A stretch of 64,000 nucleotides of DNA, taken from contig NZ_JAUSWX010000001.1 of the NCBI RefSeq assembly GCF_030815405.1, forward strand, positions 3,410,001 to 3,474,000, given 5' to 3'. This DNA is from Agromyces albus (GTDB taxonomy: Bacteria > Actinomycetota > Actinomycetes > Actinomycetales > Microbacteriaceae). The notes beneath the pieces are model-generated. The model was not told the origin of the DNA, did not search any database, and saw only the letters and a list, made by a program, of their open reading frames with translations. A program made the translations under genes and the position numbers. Positions 33,037-43,205 of the stretch are shown in pieces; positions within the stretch are counted from its first letter, which is position 1, and each line of letters begins with the position of its first letter.

Positions 33037-34287
33037 TCAAGCGCGACCGTGCGAACTGCGGGAGCGACGGGCGACCGCATCGAGCGCGACCGCGATGAGC
33101 ACGACGGCGCCGGTCACCATGTAGCGGATCGACGAGTCGAGGTTGAGCAGGGTCAAGCCGCTCGAGATCGACTGGATGACGAGGATGCCGAGCAGCGCCG
33201 CGAACGCCGATCCGCGCCCGCCGAACAGGCTCGTGCCGCCGATCACAGCCGCAGCGATCGCGTTGAGGTTGACGTCGCCGCCGCCGCTCGATTGCGCGGC
33301 CGATGCGAGTCGCCCGGCCGCGAGCAGGCCGCCGACCGCGGCAAGGGTCGTGCACGCGATGAACGCCGACGTATAGATCGCGGTGATACGGATGCCGGAG
33401 CGCCGCGCCGCCTCCCGGTTGCCGCCGACCGCGAAGAGCGAGCGGCCCCAGCTCGTGCGGGTGAGGGCGTAGTTCGCGAACAGCACGAGCGCGACGAAGA
33501 AGACGACCATCCAGCCGACCCCCCGCGCCTGGTAGAGGTACCAGACCGCGAAGGCGAGCAGCACGGCGAGCAGGCCGGCGCGGATGAGGATCAGGCTCAG
33601 CGCGGGCGCCGAGAGGCCGGCGTTTCGGCGGATGCGGGCGCGGAGTATCCCGCCGATGAGCACCGCCGCGGCGGCGAGCGCGATGAACGCGTAGGCGAGC
33701 CATTGGGGCACGAAGGCGAGCTGGCCGAAGTAGACGAGGGGCGAGTCGAACGGCAGGTTGATCGTGCCCTTCGGGCCGAGCACGAACAGCTGCAGTCCGA
33801 GGAACCCGAGGAGCCCGGCGAGCGTGATGACGAACGAGGGCACGCCGATCCGGTTGTAGATGAAGCCGTAGGCGAACCCGATCACGACCGCGATGCCGAC
33901 GGCTGCCGCGATGGCGAGCGGCAGGGGCCAGCGGTTGTCGATGAAGTTGATCGCCATGATGGCGGCGGCGAGGCCGCTCACGGATCCCACCGAGAGGTCG
34001 ATCTCGCCGACGAGCAGCACGAAGACGATCCCGAGTGCGATGACGCCGACCGGGGCCGACTCCATGAGGAGGTTCGTGAGATTGCCGCTGGAGAGGAAGT
34101 ACGGGTTCAGCACCTGGAAGATGGTCCAGATGATCGCGAGCCCGGCGATGACGGGCAGGAACCCGAGATCGCCACCCCGGATGCGGTCGATGCCCGCACG
34201 GATGGCGCCGCCCACGCCCGTGTCGGCACGGAGCCGCTCGTCCTGGAGGTCGGTGGGGGTCGGGCTGGGGGTGGTTGTGGTGGTCAT
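33037..34287 (-). CDS. Sugar ABC transporter permease (ribose/xylose class, XylH/RbsC-like)
   Basis: 416 residues with about ten membrane helices. The family signature is GIVFVLLVGEIDLSVGSVSGLAAAI, and GGNREAARRSGI marks the ATPase-coupling loop. IAAAVIGGTSLFGGRGS completes the pattern. It forms the channel of a carbohydrate importer with the upstream ATPase and binding protein. It overlaps the ATPase gene by ATGA. The sugar is not known; the co-regulated kinases suggest a polyol, pentose or tetrose. Confidence 0.92.
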   Translation of the reverse strand: MTTTTTPSPTPTDLQDERLRADTGVGGAIRAGIDRIRGGDLGFLPVIAGLAIIWTIFQVLNPYFLSSGNLTNLLMESAPVGVIALGIVFVLLVGEIDLSVGSVSGLAAAIMAINFIDNRWPLPLAIAAAVGIAVVIGFAYGFIYNRIGVPSFVITLAGLLGFLGLQLFVLGPKGTINLPFDSPLVYFGQLAFVPQWLAYAFIALAAAAVLIGGILRARIRRNAGLSAPALSLILIRAGLLAVLLAFAVWYLYQARGVGWMVVFFVALVLFANYALTRTSWGRSLFAVGGNREAARRSGIRITAIYTSAFIACTTLAAVGGLLAAGRLASAAQSSGGGDVNLNAIAAAVIGGTSLFGGRGSAFAALLGILVIQSISSGLTLLNLDSSIRYMVTGAVVLIAVALDAVARRSRSSHGRA

Positions 34288-35147
34288 CGTTCCGCGTCCT
34301 CGGTGGTGATGGCGTCGGTGGTCGGGGATGCCGCGTCGCCCCGGGAGCGTCGGCGCGTGACGGCGTTGTCGGTTGCGCCGGTGATGGCGGAGATGATCTC
34401 CTCGGTCGAGACGTCGCCGACCCGGAACTCGCCGTTGTTGCGGCCAAGTCGCAACACGACGACGCGATCGGCGACGGCCTTCACGTCCTCCATGTTGTGG
34501 CTGATGAGGATGACGGCATGCCCGCGTTCGCGCAGCCGCTCGATGAGGTTCAGCACCTCGGCCGTCTGCGCGACGCCGAGCGCTGCAGTGGGCTCGTCGA
34601 GGATGATGAGCTTCGGGTCGCCGAGGAGCGAGCGAGCGATCGCGACGGTCTGGCGCTGGCCGCCCGAGAGCGAGGCGATCGGGATTCGCACCGACGGGAT
34701 CTTCGCCGAGAGCTGCCGCAGCAGCTCCCAGGCGCGCACCTCCATGCCCACCTCGTCGAGCCGCAACGGGCGCCGCTCGCGGCCGAGGAAGAGGTTCTGC
34801 ACGACGTCGAGGTTGTCGCAGAGGGCGAGGTCCTGGAACACCGTGGCGATGCCGCGCTCGAGCGCAGCCATCGGGGTCGGCAGGGTCACCCGCTCACCGC
34901 CGAAGTCGATCGTGCCCGAGTCGGGCGCGTGCACGCCCGAGAGCACCTTGACGAGGGTGGACTTGCCGGCGCCGTTGTCGCCGACGATCGCGACGACCTC
35001 GCTCGAATCGACGTCGAGGTCGATGTCGGTGAGGGCGGCCACGGCTCCGAAGCTCTTCGAGATCCCCCGCATCGAGAGCACGGTATGGATGTTCGGGCTG
35101 GCGCCGTCCGGCGCGGCCGCGGTGTCGGTTGCGGTGCTTGCGTTCAC
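34284..35147 (-). CDS. Sugar ABC transporter ATPase, single nucleotide-binding domain
   Basis: 287 residues. Walker A VGDNGAGKST, signature LSGGQRQT, Walker B LIILDEPTAALG, H-loop ISHNMED. Most RbsA/XylG-type ATPases have two fused domains (about 500 residues); this one has only one, like FrcA, and would work as a homodimer. The C-terminus carries a charged tail (RRRSRGDAASPTTD). It follows the binding-protein gene after a strong hairpin at 35207-35241. Confidence 0.92.
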   Translation of the reverse strand: MNASTATDTAAAPDGASPNIHTVLSMRGISKSFGAVAALTDIDLDVDSSEVVAIVGDNGAGKSTLVKVLSGVHAPDSGTIDFGGERVTLPTPMAALERGIATVFQDLALCDNLDVVQNLFLGRERRPLRLDEVGMEVRAWELLRQLSAKIPSVRIPIASLSGGQRQTVAIARSLLGDPKLIILDEPTAALGVAQTAEVLNLIERLRERGHAVILISHNMEDVKAVADRVVVLRLGRNNGEFRVGDVSTEEIISAITGATDNAVTRRRSRGDAASPTTDAITTEDAER

Positions 35148-35206
35148 GGGGTGACCTCTTCGTCGGTGCGATGCGGTGGGGTGTGAGTCGGGTGGGTGAA
35201 TCCGCC

Positions 35207-35241
35207 CGGATGCCGCCCGCGACGTGCGCGGGCGGCATCCG
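35207..35241 (-). terminator. Perfect 15-bp intercistronic hairpin after the binding-protein gene
   Basis: CGGATGCCGCCCGCG (35207-35221) and CGCGGGCGGCATCCG (35227-35241) are exact inverse copies around a 5-nt loop. It starts 6 nt after the binding-protein stop codon and lies 60 nt before the ATPase gene of the same operon. Such a structure should act as a partial terminator or 3' stabiliser, giving more binding protein than membrane components. Confidence 0.7.
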
Positions 35242-35246
35242 ATGTA

Positions 35247-36326
35247 TCAGGCGATGCCGAGCGCCTCGCACGCGGCAGCGTACTCGGCGGTGCATACCTC
35301 GTCGACGGTGTAGATCTCGCCGTCGAAGATGATCTCCTTGACGTTCTCCTGCGTCACGACCTCGGGCGTGAACAACTGGGAGGGGGTGTCGAAGAGCGTC
35401 GTCTCGCCCTCGGGCGGGTTGCCCGTGAGGAAGGCGTAGGCGACTTCGGCCGCCGCCTCGGCGACGATGCGGATCGGCTTCGAGATGGTGTTGTACTGGT
35501 CGCCGGCGATGATGCGCTGGATCGCGGCGATCTCGGCGTCGTTGCCCGTGACGGGTGGCGTCGGCGTGACGCCGGCCGCCTTGAAGGCCGCGATGGATCC
35601 GCCGCCCGTTCCGTCGTTCGCCGCCACGACCCCGACGATCTGCGGGCCGAACTGCGTGATCTGGCCCGAGACCCAGTCCTGTGCCTTCTGCGGCTCCCAA
35701 CCGGGGGTGTCGAACTCGGCGAGTACCTCGAAGTCGCTCGAGTCGACGCCCGTGTGGATGCCCTTCTTGATGAGCTGGGCGGCGTCGTCGGTCGACGAGC
35801 CGTTGACGATGAGCACCCCTCCGCTCGCGCCGGCCGCCGCGAGGCCTTCGACGAGCGAGGTGCTGATGAGCTCGCCGATGCCCTCGTTGTCGAATGACAC
35901 GTAGTAGTCGGCGGGGGTGTCGACGATGGGGCGGTCGTACGTGATGACCGGGATGTTCTGAGACTGGGCGTTCACGACGATGGATGCCGCGGCCTTCGTG
36001 TCGACCGCGTCGAGCACGATGACCTTCACGCCCTGCGCGATCGCCGAGTCCGCCTGCTGCTGCTGCTTCGCGGGGTCGGAGTCGGCGTTCTGGTAGATGA
36101 TCTCGCAGTCGGGGCAGAGCTCCTCCATCTTCGCCGTGAAGAGCGGGCTGTCCTGCTGCTCGTACCTGGTCGACGCGAGGTCGGGCATGAGGAAGGCGAT
36201 CTTGCCGGATGCCGCACCGTCGCCGGTGCCGCCGGAGCCGGTGGTGTCGGCCGCACATGCTGCGAGCGCCGTGACGAGCGTGATGGACCCGAGTACTGCT
36301 GCGAGTCGCTTTTGGGATTTCTTCAT
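35247..36326 (-). CDS. Sugar ABC transporter substrate-binding lipoprotein (XylF/RbsB-like)
   Basis: 359 residues. Signal peptide with the lipobox TALAAC (Cys about 24). The mature part is a periplasmic-binding-protein fold I: KIAFLMPDLASTRYEQQDSP, then GVKVIVLDAVDTKAAASIV, PVITYDRPI, VVAANDGTGGGSIAAF and the hinge GNDAEIAAIQRIIAGDQYNT. GAGGAG precedes ATG 36326. It is divergent from a DeoR regulator and heads the importer operon. The family binds pentoses, hexoses or autoinducer-like sugars; the ligand is open. Confidence 0.93.
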   Translation of the reverse strand: MKKSQKRLAAVLGSITLVTALAACAADTTGSGGTGDGAASGKIAFLMPDLASTRYEQQDSPLFTAKMEELCPDCEIIYQNADSDPAKQQQQADSAIAQGVKVIVLDAVDTKAAASIVVNAQSQNIPVITYDRPIVDTPADYYVSFDNEGIGELISTSLVEGLAAAGASGGVLIVNGSSTDDAAQLIKKGIHTGVDSSDFEVLAEFDTPGWEPQKAQDWVSGQITQFGPQIVGVVAANDGTGGGSIAAFKAAGVTPTPPVTGNDAEIAAIQRIIAGDQYNTISKPIRIVAEAAAEVAYAFLTGNPPEGETTLFDTPSQLFTPEVVTQENVKEIIFDGEIYTVDEVCTAEYAAACEALGIA

Positions 36327-36423
36327 TGAATCTCCTCGGTGGGTCCCCGGGGCGGGGAGGATGTCCGGTGCAAGGGCGGCCCTGTGGTGTCGCGACGCAT
36401 TCACTGGGCCGTTGCCGGGAACT

Positions 36424-36463
36424 CTACCAAACCGCGCGTTATAACTGTCAACTTGTTTGGTAG
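36424..36463. promoter_or_regulatory. Inverted operator sites in the sugar-locus divergent promoter
   Basis: CTACCAAAC (36424-36432) and GTTTGGTAG (36455-36463) are perfect inverse copies; with flanks the arms are 10 bp and the centres 31 bp apart, about three helical turns. On the minus strand a TTGACA at about 36450-36445 lies between them, so they flank the importer promoter. A further half-site CTTGGTAAAG begins near 36509 before the DeoR gene. The adjacent DeoR protein is the expected binder. Confidence 0.65.
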
Positions 36464-36542
36464 ATCGGGTTTTCGTCGATACCCGGTGCTGGTCGTTCTC
36501 TCGATCGGCTTGGTAAAGTTCGGCAGGCTCGAAGGAGGACCC

Positions 36543-37349
36543 ATGAGTTCGAACAGCAACGGCCCGTCCTCGCGCAGCGCACGGCAACGGATGATCCTCG
36601 ATCACGTGCTCACCGCCGGCTCCGCCACCGCGGCGGAGCTCGCCGAGCTCACGGGACGCAGCCTGATGACCGTGCACCGCGATCTCGAAGACCTCGCGGC
36701 CCGCCAGCTCGTGCGGAAGTTCCACGGCGGCGTCTCGGCGCTCCCGACGAGCGTGTTCGAGTCGAGTTCGGAGTTCCGCATGCACCGCCGGGCCGAGGAG
36801 AAGGCTGCGCTCGCCCAGGTCGCCCAGTCGTTCGTCGAACCGGGCATGGCCATCATGCTCGACGACTCCACGACGGTGCTCGCGCTCGCCGGACTGCTGA
36901 AGGACAAGGCTCCGCTCACGGTCGTCTCCAACTACCGGCAGGTGCTCGAGGAGCTCCGTGAAGCGCCCGACGTGCACCTCATCATGATCGGCGGGGCCTA
37001 CTCGCGCACTCACGATTCGTTCATCGGCCCGCCCGACCAGACGAACCTCGAGGCCTACGCGGTCGACGTCGCGTTCCAGTCGACGTCGACGATGGACGAG
37101 CGCATGACCTACCACCAGGAGCAGGACGTCGTGAGCATGAAGCGCGTGATGCTGCAGACCGGCCGGCGCCGCGTGCTCATGATGGACGGCTCGAAGGTCG
37201 GGCACACCTCCCTCCACCGCTTCGTGCCGATCGCGGAGTTCACGGACGTGATCCTCACCGACGATGTCGACCCCGCCATGGTCGAGCGCATCGGCGACCA
37301 CGCCACCGTGCACGTTGCGGCGATCCCCTCACGCGGGGTCATCCGGTGA
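36543..37349 (+). CDS. DeoR/GlpR-family transcriptional regulator
   Basis: 268 residues. N-terminal winged helix (about 13-68: RQRMILDHVLTAGSATAAEL, RSLMTVHRDLEDLAARQLVRKFHGG) and a C-terminal DeoR sugar-phosphate sensor domain (DDSTTVLALAGLL, TVVSNYRQVLEEL, IMIGGAY, VLMMDGSKVGHTS). GAAGGAGGA precedes ATG 36543. Family members are repressors released by a phosphorylated sugar. Its position between the importer and the catabolic operon, and the shared TTGGTA-type sites, make it the local regulator. Confidence 0.92.
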   Translation: MSSNSNGPSSRSARQRMILDHVLTAGSATAAELAELTGRSLMTVHRDLEDLAARQLVRKFHGGVSALPTSVFESSSEFRMHRRAEEKAALAQVAQSFVEPGMAIMLDDSTTVLALAGLLKDKAPLTVVSNYRQVLEELREAPDVHLIMIGGAYSRTHDSFIGPPDQTNLEAYAVDVAFQSTSTMDERMTYHQEQDVVSMKRVMLQTGRRRVLMMDGSKVGHTSLHRFVPIAEFTDVILTDDVDPAMVERIGDHATVHVAAIPSRGVIR

Positions 37350-37381
37350 CCCTTCATCACCACCGCCCCCACCACGACTGG

Positions 37382-37404
37382 TAAAAATAACATCCTGCGT
37401 GTTA
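37382..37404 (+). promoter_or_regulatory. Candidate operator before the catabolic operon
   Basis: The stretch TGGTAAAA ending at 37387 resembles the TTGGTA half-sites at 36424-36463. TAACA-tcctgcg-TGTTA (37388-37404) is an adjacent perfect 5+5 inverted repeat. Both lie in the 116-bp region before the dehydrogenase gene, in an AT-rich patch suited to a promoter. This suggests that the same DeoR protein controls both operons. Confidence 0.45.
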
Positions 37405-37465
37405 CGCTCGGCACGATTCGACCGATGCACCATGCACGGTCTGCTGCACTGCAGGAAGGCGCGCA

Positions 37466-38530
37466 ATGACGCACATCTTGATCGCGGGCGACCACTTCGT
37501 CACCCCTGGACTGTTCAGGGCCGCGCTCGACCGCGAGCTGCCCGAGACCGAATCGCCGCGGTACACCGAGCTCACCCTGCCGTGGCCGCACGAGCCCTTC
37601 GGCGACGTCGCGAGCGTGCACGAGGCGAGCGGCACCGTCGACGAGACGATCGCCGCACTCGACGGCGTCGACATCGCCGTGACGCAGATGGCGCCGTTCA
37701 CCGAAGAGGTGTTCGCCGCCAGTCCGGCACTCCGCTTCATCGGCGTGTGCCGCGGCGGCCCTGTCAACGTCGACCTCGAGGCCGCGACGGCAGCAGGGGT
37801 GCTCGTGACCTTCGCCCCCGGACGCAACGCCCAGGCGGCGGCCGAGTTCACGATCGGCCTCATCCTCGCGGCCATGCGCGGCATCCCGATGACGGATGCC
37901 GCGCTGAAGCAGGGCGACTGGCGCGGCGACCACTACGCGTGGGAGAACGTCGGGGGCGAGCTCGGCGGCGCCACCGTGGGACTCGTGGGGTACGGCGCGA
38001 TCGGTCGTATCGTCGCCCGGATCCTCCGCGCGTTCGGCGCTCACGTGCTCGCATTCGATCCCTACGCAGATCCGGCGGCGCTCGTGTCCGACGGCGTGGC
38101 GACCGTGGAGCTCGACGACCTCCTCCGGCGCAGCTCGGTCGTGAGCCTGCACGCCCGGCTCACGAGCGAGACCCGGCACCTCATCGATCGGCGCGCACTC
38201 GACCTGATGCCCGAGGGCGCCGTGCTCGTGAACTCGGCCCGCGGAGGCCTTCTCGACTACGCCCCGCTCCCCGAGCTGCTGCGCTCCGGGCGCCTCGGCG
38301 GGCTCGCCCTCGACGTGTACGACGTCGAGCCGCCCCCCGCCGACTGGCCGCTCTTCAGCGCCCCGAACGTCGTCGTGTCGCCGCACCTCGCGGGTGCCAC
38401 CCGCCAGACGGCGATGCGCGCGGCCGACATCGTCGCGGGCGACGTCGCCGACTTCGTCGCCGGCCGCACTCCAGAGCACCTCGCCAATCCCGCGGTGCTC
38501 GAGCGGCTGCGGCCAGGAGTCGCGCGATGA
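37466..38530 (+). CDS. D-isomer specific 2-hydroxyacid dehydrogenase
   Basis: 354 residues. NAD-binding motif GLVGYGAIGRIVARIL, catalytic Arg in NSARGGLLD, Glu in DVYDVEPPP and His in SPHLAG: a complete active site. It would oxidise or reduce a 2-hydroxyacid, perhaps a sugar acid or phosphorylated sugar acid made in this pathway. AGGAAGG precedes ATG 37466. First gene of a four-gene operon; the next start overlaps by ATGA. The exact substrate is not predictable. Confidence 0.92.
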   Translation: MTHILIAGDHFVTPGLFRAALDRELPETESPRYTELTLPWPHEPFGDVASVHEASGTVDETIAALDGVDIAVTQMAPFTEEVFAASPALRFIGVCRGGPVNVDLEAATAAGVLVTFAPGRNAQAAAEFTIGLILAAMRGIPMTDAALKQGDWRGDHYAWENVGGELGGATVGLVGYGAIGRIVARILRAFGAHVLAFDPYADPAALVSDGVATVELDDLLRRSSVVSLHARLTSETRHLIDRRALDLMPEGAVLVNSARGGLLDYAPLPELLRSGRLGGLALDVYDVEPPPADWPLFSAPNVVVSPHLAGATRQTAMRAADIVAGDVADFVAGRTPEHLANPAVLERLRPGVAR

Positions 38531-40047
38531 CGACCGCCACTACGGGCACGACCCCCACCGCCGCCACCCTGTGCGTCGACGCCGGCACGACGCTCATCAA
38601 GGCCGTCGTCTTCGACGATGCCGGCCGGGAGCTCGTCGTCACGCGGCGCACCACCGCGATCCGCTCCCCGCGTCCGGGCTGGTCCGAGCAGGACATGCAC
38701 GAAGTGCTCGGCGCGGTGCTCGAGTGCGTCGAGGAGGCCGCACGCCAGTCGCCCCTGCCGATCGACGCGCTCGCCCTCACCGCCCAGGGCGACGGCGCCT
38801 GGATGCTCGATACCGCGGGCCTCCCGGTCGGGAACGCCGTGCTGTGGAACGACGCGCGCGCGCACGACGTCATCGATCGATGGACTCGCGACGGCGTGCT
38901 CGAGGCGGCGTTCCGCACCAACGGCTCCCTCGGCAACCTCGGCCTGCCGCACGCGATCCTCGCGTGGACCCGTGCGAACGACCCGTCGGCGCTCGACGGC
39001 GTCGCCGAGGTCACGACGTGCGGCAGCTGGATCTTCGGTTCGCTCACGGGAACGCACGGGCTGCACGCGTCGGAGGCATCCGCGCCGTGGCTCGACATCG
39101 CCACGGGAACGATCTCCGACGACCTCCTCGAACTCTATGGACTCACCGACGTGCGATCGCTCGTGCCCGCGGTGCTGCACGACGACGAACTCACCCAGCC
39201 GCTCCTGCCCGAGATCGCCGAGCGACTCGGCCTCCCCGCAGGCATCCCCGTGACCCTTGCCGCCTACGACGTCGTGTCGACGGCCTTCGGCGGCGGCTCG
39301 GTCGCACCGGGCTCGGCGTTCTGCATCCTCGGCACGACGCTCTGCACGGGCATCCTCCTCGACGCCCCCGACACCACCGGCGAACCCTCGGGGCTCACCC
39401 TCCTCGACGGTCGCGCTGATGCCGTCGTACGGGCGTTCCCGACGCTCGCGGGCACGGGCGTCATCGAGTGGATGCGCGCGCTCCTCGGCCTCGCCGACGC
39501 CGCCGAGCTCACCACCCTCGCGGGCGAAGCGGAGCCCGGGGCATCCGGGGTGCGCGTCTGGCCGTACTTCTCTCCGGCCGGCGAGCGGGCGCCCTTCCTC
39601 GACCCGGCCGCACGCGGCGTCATCGCGGGCATGTCGTTCGAGCACACCCGGGCCGACCTCGCGCGAGCCACGGTGGAAGGGCTCGCGCACGTCATCCGCG
39701 ACTGCCTCGCGGCATCCGGCGCATCGCCGTCGGAGCTCGTGCTCTCGGGCGGAGGCTCAGCGAGCGACCTCTGGTGCCGGAGCATCGCCGACATCACGGG
39801 CGTGCCAACGCGGCGCGTCGACGGCACCCAGGTGGGCGCGAAGGGCGCGCTGCTCGCCGCGCTCGTGGCCTCGGGTCGCTACTCCTCGCTCGCCGACGCA
39901 GCGGACGCGCTCGTCGCGACGAGCGGGATCTTCGAACCGGATGCCTCACGCCGCGCGTTCTTCGACGAGCGCCACGACGACTTCCTCGCCACCCGCGCTG
40001 CACTCGCTGAGCGGTGGACCGCCTGGGCCGCGGAGCCGCGCCGTTGA
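38527..40047 (+). CDS. FGGY-family carbohydrate kinase 1 (erythritol/xylulose kinase-like)
   Basis: 506 residues. N-terminal ATPase-fold motif CVDAGTTLIKAVVFDDAGRE, central ALTAQGDGAWMLD and LWNDARA, catalytic-site Asp in TLAAYDVVSTAFGGG, and C-terminal LSGGGSASDLWCRSIADITG. The AQGDG and NDARA motifs recall erythritol kinase and L-xylulokinase more than glycerol kinase. It phosphorylates a polyol or ketose with ATP after uptake. It overlaps both neighbours. Substrate is inference. Confidence 0.88.
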   Translation: MTTATTGTTPTAATLCVDAGTTLIKAVVFDDAGRELVVTRRTTAIRSPRPGWSEQDMHEVLGAVLECVEEAARQSPLPIDALALTAQGDGAWMLDTAGLPVGNAVLWNDARAHDVIDRWTRDGVLEAAFRTNGSLGNLGLPHAILAWTRANDPSALDGVAEVTTCGSWIFGSLTGTHGLHASEASAPWLDIATGTISDDLLELYGLTDVRSLVPAVLHDDELTQPLLPEIAERLGLPAGIPVTLAAYDVVSTAFGGGSVAPGSAFCILGTTLCTGILLDAPDTTGEPSGLTLLDGRADAVVRAFPTLAGTGVIEWMRALLGLADAAELTTLAGEAEPGASGVRVWPYFSPAGERAPFLDPAARGVIAGMSFEHTRADLARATVEGLAHVIRDCLAASGASPSELVLSGGGSASDLWCRSIADITGVPTRRVDGTQVGAKGALLAALVASGRYSSLADAADALVATSGIFEPDASRRAFFDERHDDFLATRAALAERWTAWAAEPRR

Positions 40048-41564
40048 GCGAGCCGGCCTGGGTTGGCGTCGATCTCGGCACGCAGAGCGTGCGTGCGATC
40101 GCCCTTGACGACGAGGGCCGCAGCCTCGCCTCGGCGTCGTCGCCGCTGCGCAGTTCGCGGCACGGCGGCCGGCACGAGCAGGACGCCGAGCAGTGGTGGT
40201 CGGCCATCGTGTCGGTGCTCGGCGACGTGACCTCGCAGCTGCCGACCGGGGTGGAAGTGCGAGCGGTCGCCGTCTCGGGAACCTCGGGCACCGTGGTCCC
40301 GGTCGACGCCGCTTCCGGCCGCGCGACCGGACCGGCCGTCATGTACGACGACCGCCGGGGCGCGCCGCACCTCGACCGGGTGGCGGCCGCGGGGTCCGCC
40401 GTCTGGACCCGACTCGGCTACCGCATGCAGGCGTCGTGGGCGCTGCCCAAGCTCCTGGCCATGCTCGAGGAGGGCGCGCTGCCGCGGGGCAGCGCGATCG
40501 CCCACCAGCCCGACGTGATCACGAGCCGGCTCGCGGGGCACCCGATGCCGAGCGACCTGAGCTCGGCCCTGAAATCGGGTGCCGACCTCGATACGGTCTC
40601 CTGGCCGATCTCGGTGTTCGAGGAGCTCGGCCTCGACGTCGAGCGGATGCCGCAGCTCGCGCCCTCAGGCGCGCTGGTCGGCGAGGTGAGCGACGCCGCC
40701 TCGCGCGAGACGGGCCTGCCCGCCGGCTGCGCGATCGTGGCCGGCATGACCGACGGCTGCGCCGCCCAGATCGCCGCCGGAGCACTCGCGCCGGGCGCCT
40801 GGAACTCCGTGCTCGGGACGACCCTCGTGCTGAAGGGCGTGGCGCTCGAGCGCCGCGTCGACCCGAGCGGTGCCGTGTACTCGCACCGCGCGCCGTTCGG
40901 CTCCGGCTGGTACCCGGGCGGCGCCTCGAGCACGGGCGCGGGAGCGATCTCGGCGTGGCTGCCGGGCCGCGACCTCAACGCGCTGACGGGGGCCTTCGAC
41001 GCCGGTGCTCCGCCGCCCGTTGCCTACCCGCTCGTCGGGAGCGGCGAGCGATTCCCGTTCGTCTCGTCTCACGCCGAGGCCTTCCTGCCGGGCGACGGTG
41101 ATGACGCCTCGCTGTTCGCGGCGATCCTGCACGGGGTCGCGTTCGTCGAGCGCCTCGCCTTCGATCTCCTCGCCGCGACGGGTTACGACGTGAACGGACC
41201 CGTGCTCGTCACGGGCGGGGGCGCGCGCAATCCCGTGTGGACGCAGCTCCGTGCCGATGTGCTCGGCCGGCCCGTGCACCTGCCCGAGCACGGCGAGGGC
41301 GCGGCCGGGATGGCCGTGCTCGCCGCCGCGGGCGCCACCGCCGCTTCAGACGCAAGCACTCGTGCAAGCGCAGGCGCGACCTCCGACGACCCGCTTGCAG
41401 CAGCAGCGGAACGGATGCTCCGGCCGCCGCGCATCGTGCCCGCCGCCGCGGATCGACACGAGCGCCTGATGCCCGCGTACAACCGGTTCGTCGACGAGCT
41501 CGACGCGCGCGGCTGGATCGGCGCGGAGCTCGCGGCATCCGCACGGGAACGGAGCATCCGATGA
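40044..41564 (+). CDS. FGGY-family carbohydrate kinase 2 (ribulokinase/xylulokinase-1-like)
   Basis: 506 residues, not a close copy of kinase 1. Motifs: GVDLGTQSVRAIALDDEGR, VSGTSGTVVPVD, VMYDDRRGAPHL, GMTDGCAAQIAAGA, SVLGTTLVLKG and VTGGGARNPVWTQLRADVLG. The SGTSGT and MYDDRR pattern is that of the D-ribulokinase/plant xylulokinase-1 branch. TTG 40044 overlaps the preceding stop (TTGA) with GGAG 9 nt before, and fits the family start; ATG 40014 is the alternative. Two distinct FGGY kinases in one operon imply two phosphorylations or two substrates. Confidence 0.88.
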   Translation: MSEPAWVGVDLGTQSVRAIALDDEGRSLASASSPLRSSRHGGRHEQDAEQWWSAIVSVLGDVTSQLPTGVEVRAVAVSGTSGTVVPVDAASGRATGPAVMYDDRRGAPHLDRVAAAGSAVWTRLGYRMQASWALPKLLAMLEEGALPRGSAIAHQPDVITSRLAGHPMPSDLSSALKSGADLDTVSWPISVFEELGLDVERMPQLAPSGALVGEVSDAASRETGLPAGCAIVAGMTDGCAAQIAAGALAPGAWNSVLGTTLVLKGVALERRVDPSGAVYSHRAPFGSGWYPGGASSTGAGAISAWLPGRDLNALTGAFDAGAPPPVAYPLVGSGERFPFVSSHAEAFLPGDGDDASLFAAILHGVAFVERLAFDLLAATGYDVNGPVLVTGGGARNPVWTQLRADVLGRPVHLPEHGEGAAGMAVLAAAGATAASDASTRASAGATSDDPLAAAAERMLRPPRIVPAAADRHERLMPAYNRFVDELDARGWIGAELAASARERSIR

Positions 41565-42190
41565 CGACCGTTCACCTCGCACGCCACGGCGAGACGACCT
41601 GGCACGCGGAGAACCGCTACGCGGGTTCGAGCGACGTGCCCCTCACCCCTCTCGGCCGGGAGCAGGGGGCCGCGCTCGCCCGGTGGGCCGCGGAAGCCGG
41701 CATCGACGTGGTGGCGACCTCCGACCTCTCGCGAGCGGTCGAGACGGGCGACGCGGCCGCGAAGCTGCTCGGCGTCGACCTCGTGATCGATGCCCGGCTG
41801 CGCGAGGTCGACTTCGGTTCCGGCGAGGGCCTCACGCGCGCCGAGATGACCGAGCTCTTCCCCGAGCAGCTCGCCGCGTTCGTCGCCGCACCGGCCTCAT
41901 CGCCGCTTCCGGGTGGCGAACCCGGCGCGGCGGCGGTCGCGCGCGGGCTCGACGCCGTCGCCGGGCTCACGCGGGTCGCCGGTGCCGACGGCACGGTGCT
42001 CGTGGTGGCGCACTCGACGCTCATCCGGCTCGTGCTGTGCTGCGTGCTCGGGCTGCCGCTCGACGAGTACCGGAGGCGCTTCCCCGGTCTCGCGAACACC
42101 GCCGTGACCACGGTCGAGCTTCCGTCGGCCGCCGACGCCGCCGCGCTCGTCGAACGAGGGGCGCTCATCAGGTTCAACGTGCCCCTGTGA
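41561..42190 (+). CDS. Histidine phosphatase (phosphoglycerate mutase-like)
   Basis: 209 residues. Phosphohistidine motif LARHGETTWHAENRYAG at the N-terminus, Arg in SDLSRAVET, Glu in REVDFGSGEG and second His in VVAHSTLIRLV: the complete branch 1 active site. It removes phosphate from a small metabolite. Here it is the last gene of the dehydrogenase-kinase-kinase operon (ATGA overlap), so a sugar or sugar-acid phosphate is the likely substrate. A strong terminator follows. Confidence 0.9.
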   Translation: MTTVHLARHGETTWHAENRYAGSSDVPLTPLGREQGAALARWAAEAGIDVVATSDLSRAVETGDAAAKLLGVDLVIDARLREVDFGSGEGLTRAEMTELFPEQLAAFVAAPASSPLPGGEPGAAAVARGLDAVAGLTRVAGADGTVLVVAHSTLIRLVLCCVLGLPLDEYRRRFPGLANTAVTTVELPSAADAAALVERGALIRFNVPL

Positions 42191-42304: not shown

Positions 42305-42859
42305 TCAGCGTGGGCCTCCGAGTGGCGACAGGTAGTCGTCGACGGGCACCGGTGCGCTGCCCTTCAGCTCGCGCTTCGCTGCATCGCTCCATGCCTCGGC
42401 GTACTCGCTGAGGCGCGCGCCCTGCATCTCTGCAGCGGTCACGCTGGCAGCTGCGTATGCCTCCGCGTACGCGCTGAGACGCCTGCCCTGCGTGTCTGCT
42501 GCACTCTCGGCGACCGGTGCGTTTCCCTTCAGCTCGCGCTTCGCTGCGTCACTGAACGGCTGCTCGACCGTGGTCGGTGCGCTGCCCTTCAACTCACGGA
42601 TCGCCTCGGCGCTGAACGGCTGCTCGACCGTGGTCGGTGCGCTGCCCTTCAACTCACGGATCGCCTCGGCGCTGAACGGCTGCGACGAGAAGGCGTCCTT
42701 GTCGATGACGTGGCCACGTGCGAGACCCATGGCCGCGGCGTTGGCCAGCGGCTTCAGGTTGTCGTTCACCTGGCTCTCCACGGCTGCTCCAGCGCAACCG
42801 CTCAGGAGTACTGCGAGCGACCCGATGACGAGCACCGGTGCCGCTTTCCTTGTGTTCAT
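42305..42859 (-). CDS. Repeat-containing lipoprotein (RELKGSAP repeats)
   Basis: 184 residues. Signal peptide with lipobox AVLLSGC (Cys about 22). The mature part is built from repeats: QPFSAEAIRELKGSAPTTVE twice in exact tandem, then QPFSDAAKRELKGNAPVAES, and near the C-terminus WSDAAKRELKGSAPVPVD. Two QGxRLSxYAEA units lie between. Each unit is an amphipathic helix with an Ala-Pro turn. AAAGGAATGG precedes ATG 42859. I do not recognise a family; a repeated surface-exposed helix protein is the best description. Confidence 0.75.
   Translation of the reverse strand: MNTRKAAPVLVIGSLAVLLSGCAGAAVESQVNDNLKPLANAAAMGLARGHVIDKDAFSSQPFSAEAIRELKGSAPTTVEQPFSAEAIRELKGSAPTTVEQPFSDAAKRELKGNAPVAESAADTQGRRLSAYAEAYAAASVTAAEMQGARLSEYAEAWSDAAKRELKGSAPVPVDDYLSPLGGPR
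42541..42675. repeat. 60-bp tandem repeats inside the lipoprotein gene
   Basis: Blocks 42541-42600 and 42601-42660 are identical except for a few bases at their left end, and a partial third copy runs to about 42683. The unit encodes the 20-residue RELKGSAP repeat. Near identity at silent sites means a recent duplication. Confidence 0.9.
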
Positions 42860-43205
42860 GGTTCCATTCCTTTCGAGTGGGATGCCCTGAAGGTATGCGC
42901 GACGCGGGCGCGCGGAATCCGGGGAGCCCCGGCCCTCGACCTCGGAATTTTCCTGAGACTTCCTCAGTGTCGACGCCGCGCGACCACTCCGAACAGAGCC
43001 TCCCCACCCTGAGAGCCCTCGCGCGGCGCGGGCGTTGCGCGGAGCGGCGAAGTCCGCCGCGAAATCCTGCGTGCGCGCAAGAAGGCTGCACCGGGCCGCA
43101 ACACATCGCGGGAAGCTTGCACCTAGCCTTGATGCAGGGCCGATCGGCCGCATCACCCCGCATCGCGCCGCACGCGCGGGCACGCAACCGGGAACGGAGG
43201 TTCAC
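42860..43205. other. 346-bp divergent intergenic region
   Basis: Lies between the repeat lipoprotein (minus) and the DUF6421 gene (plus), so it should hold both promoters. A CTGAG-acttc-CTCAG inverted repeat is at 42953-42967 beside an AT-rich GGAATTTTCC stretch. I see no convincing coding sequence, no tRNA and no larger repeat. Confidence 0.5.

Follow-up and report, generated by a model that had tools for sequence, protein, structure and literature searches.

A cassette of eight genes at positions 33037-42190 of the stretch of Agromyces albus DNA analysed here (64,000 nucleotides, hereafter the window; positions 3410001-3474000 of a 4.27-Mb genome in a single contig) encodes a sugar importer, a DeoR-family regulator, a 2-hydroxyacid dehydrogenase, two FGGY kinases (K1 and K2) and a histidine phosphatase. 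The cassette is a real, conserved unit, and it is very probable that its genes serve one pathway rather than unrelated ones. Tentatively, we read it as an inducible cassette that channels a C4-C5 polyol, or a sugar closely related to one, into the pentose phosphate pathway. A first-pass annotation, made from the sequence alone, had proposed an undescribed route for a tetrose, a pentose or a sugar acid; to this we can add that the genes form a conserved unit and that no description of their combination was found in the portions of Creative Commons-licensed PubMed Central (PMC) text that were surveyed. The cassette is thus apparently undescribed, although a subscription paper on it could exist.

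The gene coordinates were set from open reading frame (ORF) lists, codon-position GC and translation, and the features of the cassette are the following.

33037-34287, minus strand: CUT2 ATP-binding cassette (ABC) permease (BPD_transp_2, Pfam PF02653); top NCBIfam match GguB, under the cut-off; kept in related cassettes
34284-35147, minus strand: single-domain CUT2 ATPase (PF00005), with a 4-bp overlap with the permease gene
35247-36326, minus strand: XylF/ChvE-like sugar-binding lipoprotein (PF13407)
36423-36464, no strand: 10-bp inverted repeat TCTACCAAAC/GTTTGGTAGA, 22 bp apart, between the binding protein and DeoR genes
36543-37349, plus strand: DeoR-family regulator (PF00455 and PF08220)
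37388-37404, no strand: candidate DeoR operator TAACA-N7-TGTTA, palindromic, ending 61 bp before the dehydrogenase start
37466-38530, plus strand: 2-hydroxyacid dehydrogenase, phosphoglycerate dehydrogenase (PGDH)-like, RGGPVN subfamily (PF02826/PF00389)
38527-40047, plus strand: FGGY kinase K1, of a clade beside EryA (PF00370/PF02782)
40044-41564, plus strand: FGGY kinase K2, of the SePSK/AtXK-1 type (similarity to PDB 5htr and 5htn)
41561-42190, plus strand: histidine phosphatase, branch 1 (PF00300), catalytic residues intact

The earlier description of the layout, an importer divergent from the DeoR gene and then four enzymes, stands, and its statement that all genes are joined by 4-bp overlaps does not: such overlaps occur only at the dehydrogenase-K1-K2-phosphatase and permease-ATPase junctions, with 116 bp between the DeoR and dehydrogenase genes and 99 bp between the ATPase and binding protein genes. 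The start of K2 is a TTG overlapping the TGA of K1, an alternative start being the GTG at 40014. Pfam bears out the family names given earlier for every protein. Among the NCBIfam matches listed (for the ATPase, 25 of 193), none of the eight proteins reaches a curated cut-off, and annotation rules therefore give them no specific function. The ATPase, 287 aa long, aligns with the first half of the XylG/AraG-type models of about 500 positions. Where seen, the annotated names of these proteins are general (FGGY kinase, 2-hydroxyacid dehydrogenase, histidine phosphatase), and one source calls some K1 relatives erythritol kinase or xylulokinase.

A genome collection was scanned with a K1 alignment; at least 591 stretches matched, the best 80 were kept, and neighbouring genes were scored as present at 35% identity and half coverage. 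The dehydrogenase, K2 and the phosphatase are all present at each of the 19 top loci (L024-L042; K1 identity 41-62%) and were not found by this criterion at the remaining 61 K1 loci (L043-L103), which are counted as misses even where contigs of just 3.5-12 kb, as several of them are, make an absent neighbour weaker evidence. The top 19 loci belong mostly to Actinomycetota, with an Acidobacteriaceae isolate (L041) and metagenome-assembled contigs labelled Acidimicrobiales (L039) and Verrucomicrobiota (L027, a contig of just 10 kb that is possibly mis-binned), and both gene order and transporter type differ between lineages.

In 150 genomes of the host's family, Microbacteriaceae, a K1 search at E up to 1e-60 gave seven genomes with a match, the window's own included. 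The first-pass annotation had proposed looking for the gene set across this family, and the set was recovered at four of the six other K1 loci (L014, L016, L017 and L019) and not at L015 and L018, which count as misses. K1 comes in two types, those of L016, L017 and L019 being 34-36% identical to K1 of the window while their dehydrogenases are 64-66% identical to its dehydrogenase. The class was searched with the dehydrogenase (394 genomes, E up to 1e-80), which gave 45 places in 44 genomes, again with the window's own included; at the 44 loci other than the latter a K1-type kinase accompanies the dehydrogenase in 43 cases, K2 in 36 and the histidine phosphatase in 35. Five of the eight class loci without K2 carry replacement genes, which are described below, and the other three are L125, a 3.9-kb contig, L149, where the contig breaks off on the flank that bears K2 in its relatives, and L157. 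For the phosphatase there is a ninth locus at which none was counted, L161, and there the fetched stretch ends within the locus. The minimal gene row of L157, without phosphatase or second kinase, is a simpler relative of the cassette; the rhamnose isomerase gene beside it is convergent and apparently a separate transcription unit, as the DeoC gene and the ribose-type ABC gene beside L017 apparently are as well.

The window genome has six FGGY genes, and no relatives of the dehydrogenase, K2 or the phosphatase were found at the four loci that hold the others (L020-L023). A congener (locus L133, genome G358) has a different version of the cassette, with K1 of the second type and no importer found with the queries used; the alpha-L-rhamnosidase and inositol-monophosphatase genes near it apparently form a separate unit, since a phosphate permease gene lies between. 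Because this congener has a version of the cassette and five others in the class sample gave no dehydrogenase match at 1e-80, the patchy spread among congeners suggests horizontal transfer.

The two kinases belong to different FGGY branches, as had been claimed from the sequence; the tree and alignments put K1 on the EryA side and K2 on the SePSK side. In a tree of the 69 cassette K1 proteins and 13 references (E. coli and plasmid-borne), all 69 are monophyletic with support 0.997. The kinase phylogeny envisaged in the first-pass annotation thus places K1 in a clade of its own, outside the separate clade (support 1.0) that is formed by two EryA proteins and two rhizobial kinases; a larger group of the tree, which includes LyxK, has support 0.992. 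Where XylB has GQMHG, all 69 K1 proteins have QGDG, which is also found in both EryA references. The top NCBIfam family of K1 is XylB, at 227.8 bits against a cut-off of 380.25.

The alignments of K2 with AtXK-1 (PDB 5htr, E=2.3e-43) and SePSK (PDB 5htn, E=7.1e-41) span the greater part of the chains, and K2 reaches 73.5 bits against the TIGR01315 pentulose-kinase model, whose cut-off is 408.7. The positions of SePSK D8, T11, D221 and K163 and the GTSGT loop, as given in the excerpts of PMC4880283, are kept in K2. Among 60 cassette K2 proteins the motifs TSG[TS] and TDG are found in all 60 and [AG]LK[TS]G in 56. According to the excerpts of the same paper, the response of SePSK to D-ribulose exceeded its response to L-ribulose, the xyluloses or glycerol.

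The cassette dehydrogenases (n=69) have RGGP[VT]N in 69, N.ARG in 68, PGRNA in 65 and PH[LQ][AG]G in 60, and the extra arginines in the RGGP[VT]N and PGRNA loops would suit a phosphorylated substrate. The dehydrogenase of the window has an Asp after the second strand, as is typical of NAD use. In 62 aligned phosphatase sequences, the window's included, the catalytic RH, R58 and E82 are invariant and H151 is present in 61, the remaining sequence having a gap.

At six loci (L124, L126 and L129-L132) genes for a haloacid dehalogenase (HAD)-type phosphatase, a dihydroxyacetone kinase (DAK)-family protein and an RpiB-type isomerase lie near those for the dehydrogenase and K1. Five of the six are without K2 and the histidine phosphatase, and L132 holds both sets. 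The NCBIfam models for the replacement proteins were run on L129, where the HAD phosphatase matches hexitol phosphatase HxpB best, though at 122.2 bits it stays under the cut-off (191), and the kinase exceeds the PRK14479 cut-off (636.9 against 492). The L129 isomerase exceeds the cut-off of the RpiB subfamily PRK05571 and falls slightly under that of RPI_actino, the next model being D-erythrulose-4-phosphate isomerase (161.1 against 240). That a phosphatase and a kinase of other folds replace both genes is the strongest argument that dephosphorylation and a second phosphorylation probably make up a true pathway step and not clean-up, an argument drawn from loci that are possibly of one common origin.

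The wider relatives add further enzymes. A transaldolase gene lies directly downstream of the dehydrogenase gene in L032 and L042, and a short-chain dehydrogenase/reductase (SDR) gene precedes K1 in L039. On rhizobial and rhodobacterial plasmids (L106-L109), dehydrogenase relatives at 42-44% identity have a class II aldolase and an FGGY kinase as neighbours, and in the tree two of these kinases, from L106 and L107, group with EryA; L107, from S. meliloti, also has a K2-like kinase, an annotated glycerol-3-phosphate dehydrogenase, a triose-phosphate isomerase and RpiB. The same trio of dehydrogenase relative, FGGY kinase and class II aldolase is present in L197, outside Actinomycetota. If the product were a ketose-1-phosphate, it would be a fitting substrate for the aldolases of L107 and L197, which are FucA-like. 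The rows of L108 and L109, on Rhodobacterales plasmids, hold three CoA transferases, an annotated acetolactate synthase and a molybdopterin oxidoreductase in addition to the dehydrogenase, aldolase and kinase. Among 249 genomes of Bacillota, the phylum of a Clostridium record, 13 have a dehydrogenase match at 1e-60, and by the query set used an FGGY kinase lies within 1.5 kb in nine of them. Two Bacillota kinases are not among the sequences of the kinase tree, and their labels are those of the best tblastn query. The kinase of L196 is nearest an EryA-like query and that of L202 nearest LyxK. L196 further has the dehydrogenase (46% identity) and a zinc alcohol dehydrogenase that reaches no cut-off, whereas its RpiB, DhaK, DhaL and xylulokinase all exceed theirs; L202 has a galactitol-type phosphotransferase system (PTS) IIC subunit (under the cut-off), an SDR and a ketose-bisphosphate aldolase. 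A FucA-like aldolase and a UgpC-type ABC ATPase are also found within 1-15400 of L196. Taken together, the wider relatives point to the metabolism of polyols and ketoses.

The binding protein is closest to XylF/ChvE (PDB 3m9w, E=1.9e-45) and reaches 181.4 bits against the TIGR02634 xylF model, whose cut-off is 389.55. Twenty-eight cassette binding proteins share AFLMPDxASTRYE, YDRP, DTPxW, AANDGT, TGND and ISKPI. Arg, Asp-Arg, Trp, Asn, Asp and Lys are kept in the 28 relatives at the positions that align with the sugar site of XylF, and the NN pair of XylF is not kept, being DA in the window protein. Transporters of other kinds occur in some related cassettes: a permease related to the major facilitator superfamily (MFS) permeases of L041 and L042 is present at three of the 19 top K1 loci and nine of the 44 class loci, and all six MFS permeases tested (L041, L042, L105, L124, L131 and L132) exceed the TIGR00897 (RbtT/DalT/CsbX) cut-off, while L136 and L144 have CUT1-type importer genes nearby.

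The cassette genes are probably co-regulated. The site TAACA-N7-TGTTA is the sole match in the 64 kb at up to one mismatch, 0.01 being expected. Counted within 260 bp upstream at the same tolerance, it precedes 6 of 69 dehydrogenase genes, 12 of 40 deoR genes, 8 of 27 binding protein genes and 5 of 13 MFS genes, the means of 50 single-base shuffles being 0.02-0.08 per set; in L042 the gene behind it encodes the permease, and transaldolase is the last gene of the same row. The inverted repeat at 36423-36464 is, judging from its sequence, another candidate regulator site. L037 has a SorC-type regulator.

The RbtT/DalT/CsbX permeases, the transaldolase and the common operator-like site suggest an inducible route by which a tetritol, a pentitol or a small sugar would reach the pentose phosphate pathway. 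A C4-C5 polyol or ketose as substrate is the choice favoured by the same permeases and transaldolase, by DAK accompanied by RpiB and by the galactitol-type PTS subunit beside a relative in Bacillota. Taken separately, entry into the pentose phosphate pathway seems to us rather likely and a polyol or ketose substrate somewhat probable, and the exact order of steps given below is tentative. We infer this order together with the substrate, the action of the dehydrogenase on a phosphate, the pentose phosphate entry and the role of the DNA site. The substrate would be taken up by the CUT2 importer, or elsewhere by an RbtT/DalT/CsbX permease or a CUT1 importer, and K1 would phosphorylate the imported polyol. 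The RGGPVN dehydrogenase would then oxidise the product of K1, giving a ketose phosphate whose phosphate group sits at the end that the pentose phosphate pathway cannot use; the histidine phosphatase would strip that phosphate to give a free ketose, possibly D-ribulose or D-erythrulose, and K2 (or DAK) would phosphorylate it at the other end. RpiB or housekeeping enzymes, with transaldolase, would lead the product into the pentose phosphate pathway; for the relatives in rhizobia, cleavage of the ketose-1-phosphate by a FucA-like aldolase is an alternative. DeoR would repress via TAACA-N7-TGTTA until a pathway metabolite binds it. With this one scheme the proposal would account for all three cassette variants; against it stand a binding site of the ring type and the triad for carboxylates. 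The most far-reaching reading, which we regard as doubtful, is that the cassette embodies a new design of kinase, dehydrogenase, phosphatase and second kinase: a small polyol would receive a phosphate at one end, be oxidised as its phosphate, and then be stripped and re-phosphorylated at the other end, the last two steps having been refilled by unrelated families in related cassettes.

Several observations weigh against this proposal. The Arg/Glu/His triad, with which enzymes of this kind handle carboxylates, is intact in the dehydrogenase; no member of the 2-hydroxyacid-dehydrogenase superfamily is known to have been proven on a polyol phosphate, and the oxidation of one would be an activity not known anywhere in the superfamily. 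The sequence of the binding protein suggests that it is made for a ring-forming sugar, and polyol-binding proteins of M. smegmatis score far lower. This XylF-like protein is present at 15 of the 19 and 8 of the 44 loci and is commoner than the polyol permease in the former set. The XylF-type binding protein and the intact triad mean that the substrate may still be an aldose or a sugar acid. The K1 clade joins the EryA clade (with one Paracoccus kinase) at just 0.68, Ser222 of SePSK, a ligand-contacting residue in the excerpts of PMC4880283, is Gly in K2, and most loci are without TAACA-N7-TGTTA, which stands upstream of the dehydrogenase in 6 of 69 only. Finally, the class locus L157 has just a CUT2 importer, an RGGPTN dehydrogenase and one XylB-like kinase.

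The main rival, which we regard as rather unlikely, is a sugar-acid route: K1 would act on a (keto)aldonate, the dehydrogenase would reduce or oxidise the carbon beside the carboxylate, and K2 and the phosphatase would form a side branch. KguK and KguD, which handle 2-ketogluconate, and PdxB, which handles 4-phosphoerythronate, serve as its models. The intact triad and the PGDH-like sequence fit such a route, as do the L157 row of importer, dehydrogenase and one kinase and the SDR before K1 in L039, and the arginines of RGGP[VT]N (69/69) and PGRNA (65/69) could bind a phosphate here too. However, polyol-type permeases, DAK, RpiB and transaldolase occur in some related loci, K1 lies on the EryA side and scores 123 bits with gluconokinase, whose cut-off is 648.55, and a mere side branch would not readily account for a phosphatase and a second kinase that most loci retain and for which five loci have unrelated proteins of the same class. 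Alternatively, two ketopentoses may enter through one importer, with K1 as a xylulokinase-type and K2 as a D-ribulokinase-type enzyme, while the phosphatase and dehydrogenase clear side products. The XylB match of K1 (227.8, cut-off 380.25), the SePSK-like sequence of K2, the response of SePSK to D-ribulose in the excerpts of PMC4880283 and, in those of PMC12307932, a CUT2 importer for free D-ribulose in C. rodentium and enterohaemorrhagic E. coli all agree with this. We nevertheless consider it unlikely: K1 has the QGDG of EryA in place of the GQMHG of XylB, and the dehydrogenase and phosphatase are conserved about as strictly as the kinases, the phosphatase being swapped for another fold in five loci. 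It is improbable that a branched or unusual aldose, such as hamamelose or another plant sugar, is taken up as a pyranose and oxidised to D-ribulose or erythrulose; the XylF/ChvE-like pocket with its replaced NN pair (DA in the window) and a second kinase of the D-ribulose type would be in keeping with it, but the window cassette has no decarboxylase or aldose dehydrogenase, the chemistry exists on paper only, and the literature naming these sugars, surveyed at the level of titles, showed no bacterial route. That genes of unrelated pathways are neighbours by chance would agree with the variation of gene order and transporter type between lineages and is nonetheless extremely improbable, being contradicted by the conservation counts (the same enzymes in 19/19 K1 loci and, with K2, in 36/44 dehydrogenase loci despite rearrangement), the overlapping genes and the common DNA site.

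Known systems resemble the cassette in part. The erythritol operon (eryA-eryB-eryC of roseobacters and rhizobial plasmids) shares with it an FGGY kinase of the same side, QGDG and SorC/DeoR regulators, and RpiB is also found in one cassette variant. A plain erythritol operon was nevertheless rejected: K1 forms its own clade outside that of EryA, the cassette has instead a second kinase and a phosphatase, along with its 2-hydroxyacid dehydrogenase, and no EryB (GlpD-like), EryC or triose-phosphate-isomerase/TpiB-type gene is found among the eight proteins of 33037-42190. A D-xylose operon (XylFGH-XylAB) was rejected as well, there being no xylose isomerase among the eight proteins, the 287-aa ATPase not being a two-domain XylG, and the XylB, XylF and XylG scores lying far under the NCBIfam cut-offs. 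The ribitol and D-arabinitol operons of Klebsiella (rbt/dal) share with the cassettes a pentulose-type kinase and, in several of them, an RbtT/DalT/CsbX permease, whereas the window has a CUT2 importer with a 2-hydroxyacid dehydrogenase and no ribitol or arabinitol dehydrogenase is found in the cassette. Threitol and erythritol pathways use DAK-type erythrulose kinases and DerI, to which the DAK-family kinase and RpiB/DerI-type isomerase of L124, L126 and L129-L132 are similar; these cassettes add an EryA-side kinase, a 2-hydroxyacid dehydrogenase and a HAD phosphatase, and the cassette of the window is without DAK or RpiB. The kguEKTD operon for 2-ketogluconate likewise combines a kinase with a 2-hydroxyacid-dehydrogenase-family reductase, but its kinase is of another family and it has no phosphatase or second kinase. 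The yoaDCB genes of B. subtilis, for a 2-hydroxyacid dehydrogenase, an FGGY kinase and a permease, show the same dehydrogenase-kinase pairing, a likeness by gene description only. K2 belongs to a catabolic operon, and SePSK and AtXK-1 were compared with it as proteins only.

In the literature as far as the available excerpts go, PMC517825 touches the yoaDCB genes and PMC2885750 holds a guess of 2009 that ties YoaDC to cysteine degradation. PMC12307932 covers a ribitol locus and describes D-ribulose as a nutrient that is imported via a CUT2 system accompanied by an FGGY kinase, and PMC9700705 describes a haloarchaeal sugar-phosphate route in which a phosphatase is followed by a FucA-type aldolase. 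Nothing on the cassette was found in the parts of the methionine-salvage and hamamelose/carboxyarabinitol literature that were surveyed.

The cassette is complete-looking, regulated and dispersed, and naming its substrate could correct the general names that its proteins bear at present. If the proposed order is true, the question arises why a catabolic pathway would spend two ATP and discard a phosphate, and one subfamily of 2-hydroxyacid dehydrogenases would, across several phyla, acquire a function linked to that of sugar kinases.

In haloarchaea, two kinase loci with good K1 scores have neighbours of other kinds; at L167, on a haloarchaeal plasmid, the K1-like kinase adjoins a class II aldolase, GlpABC and an inositol monophosphatase. 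In the window, the gene convergent to that of the phosphatase (ORF 42305-43183, minus strand) encodes a small predicted lipoprotein with degenerate tandem repeats, a 60-bp unit in 2.8 copies at 42515-42683 and a 66-bp unit in two copies at 42391-42522, with the motif QPFSAEAIRELKGSAPTTVE.

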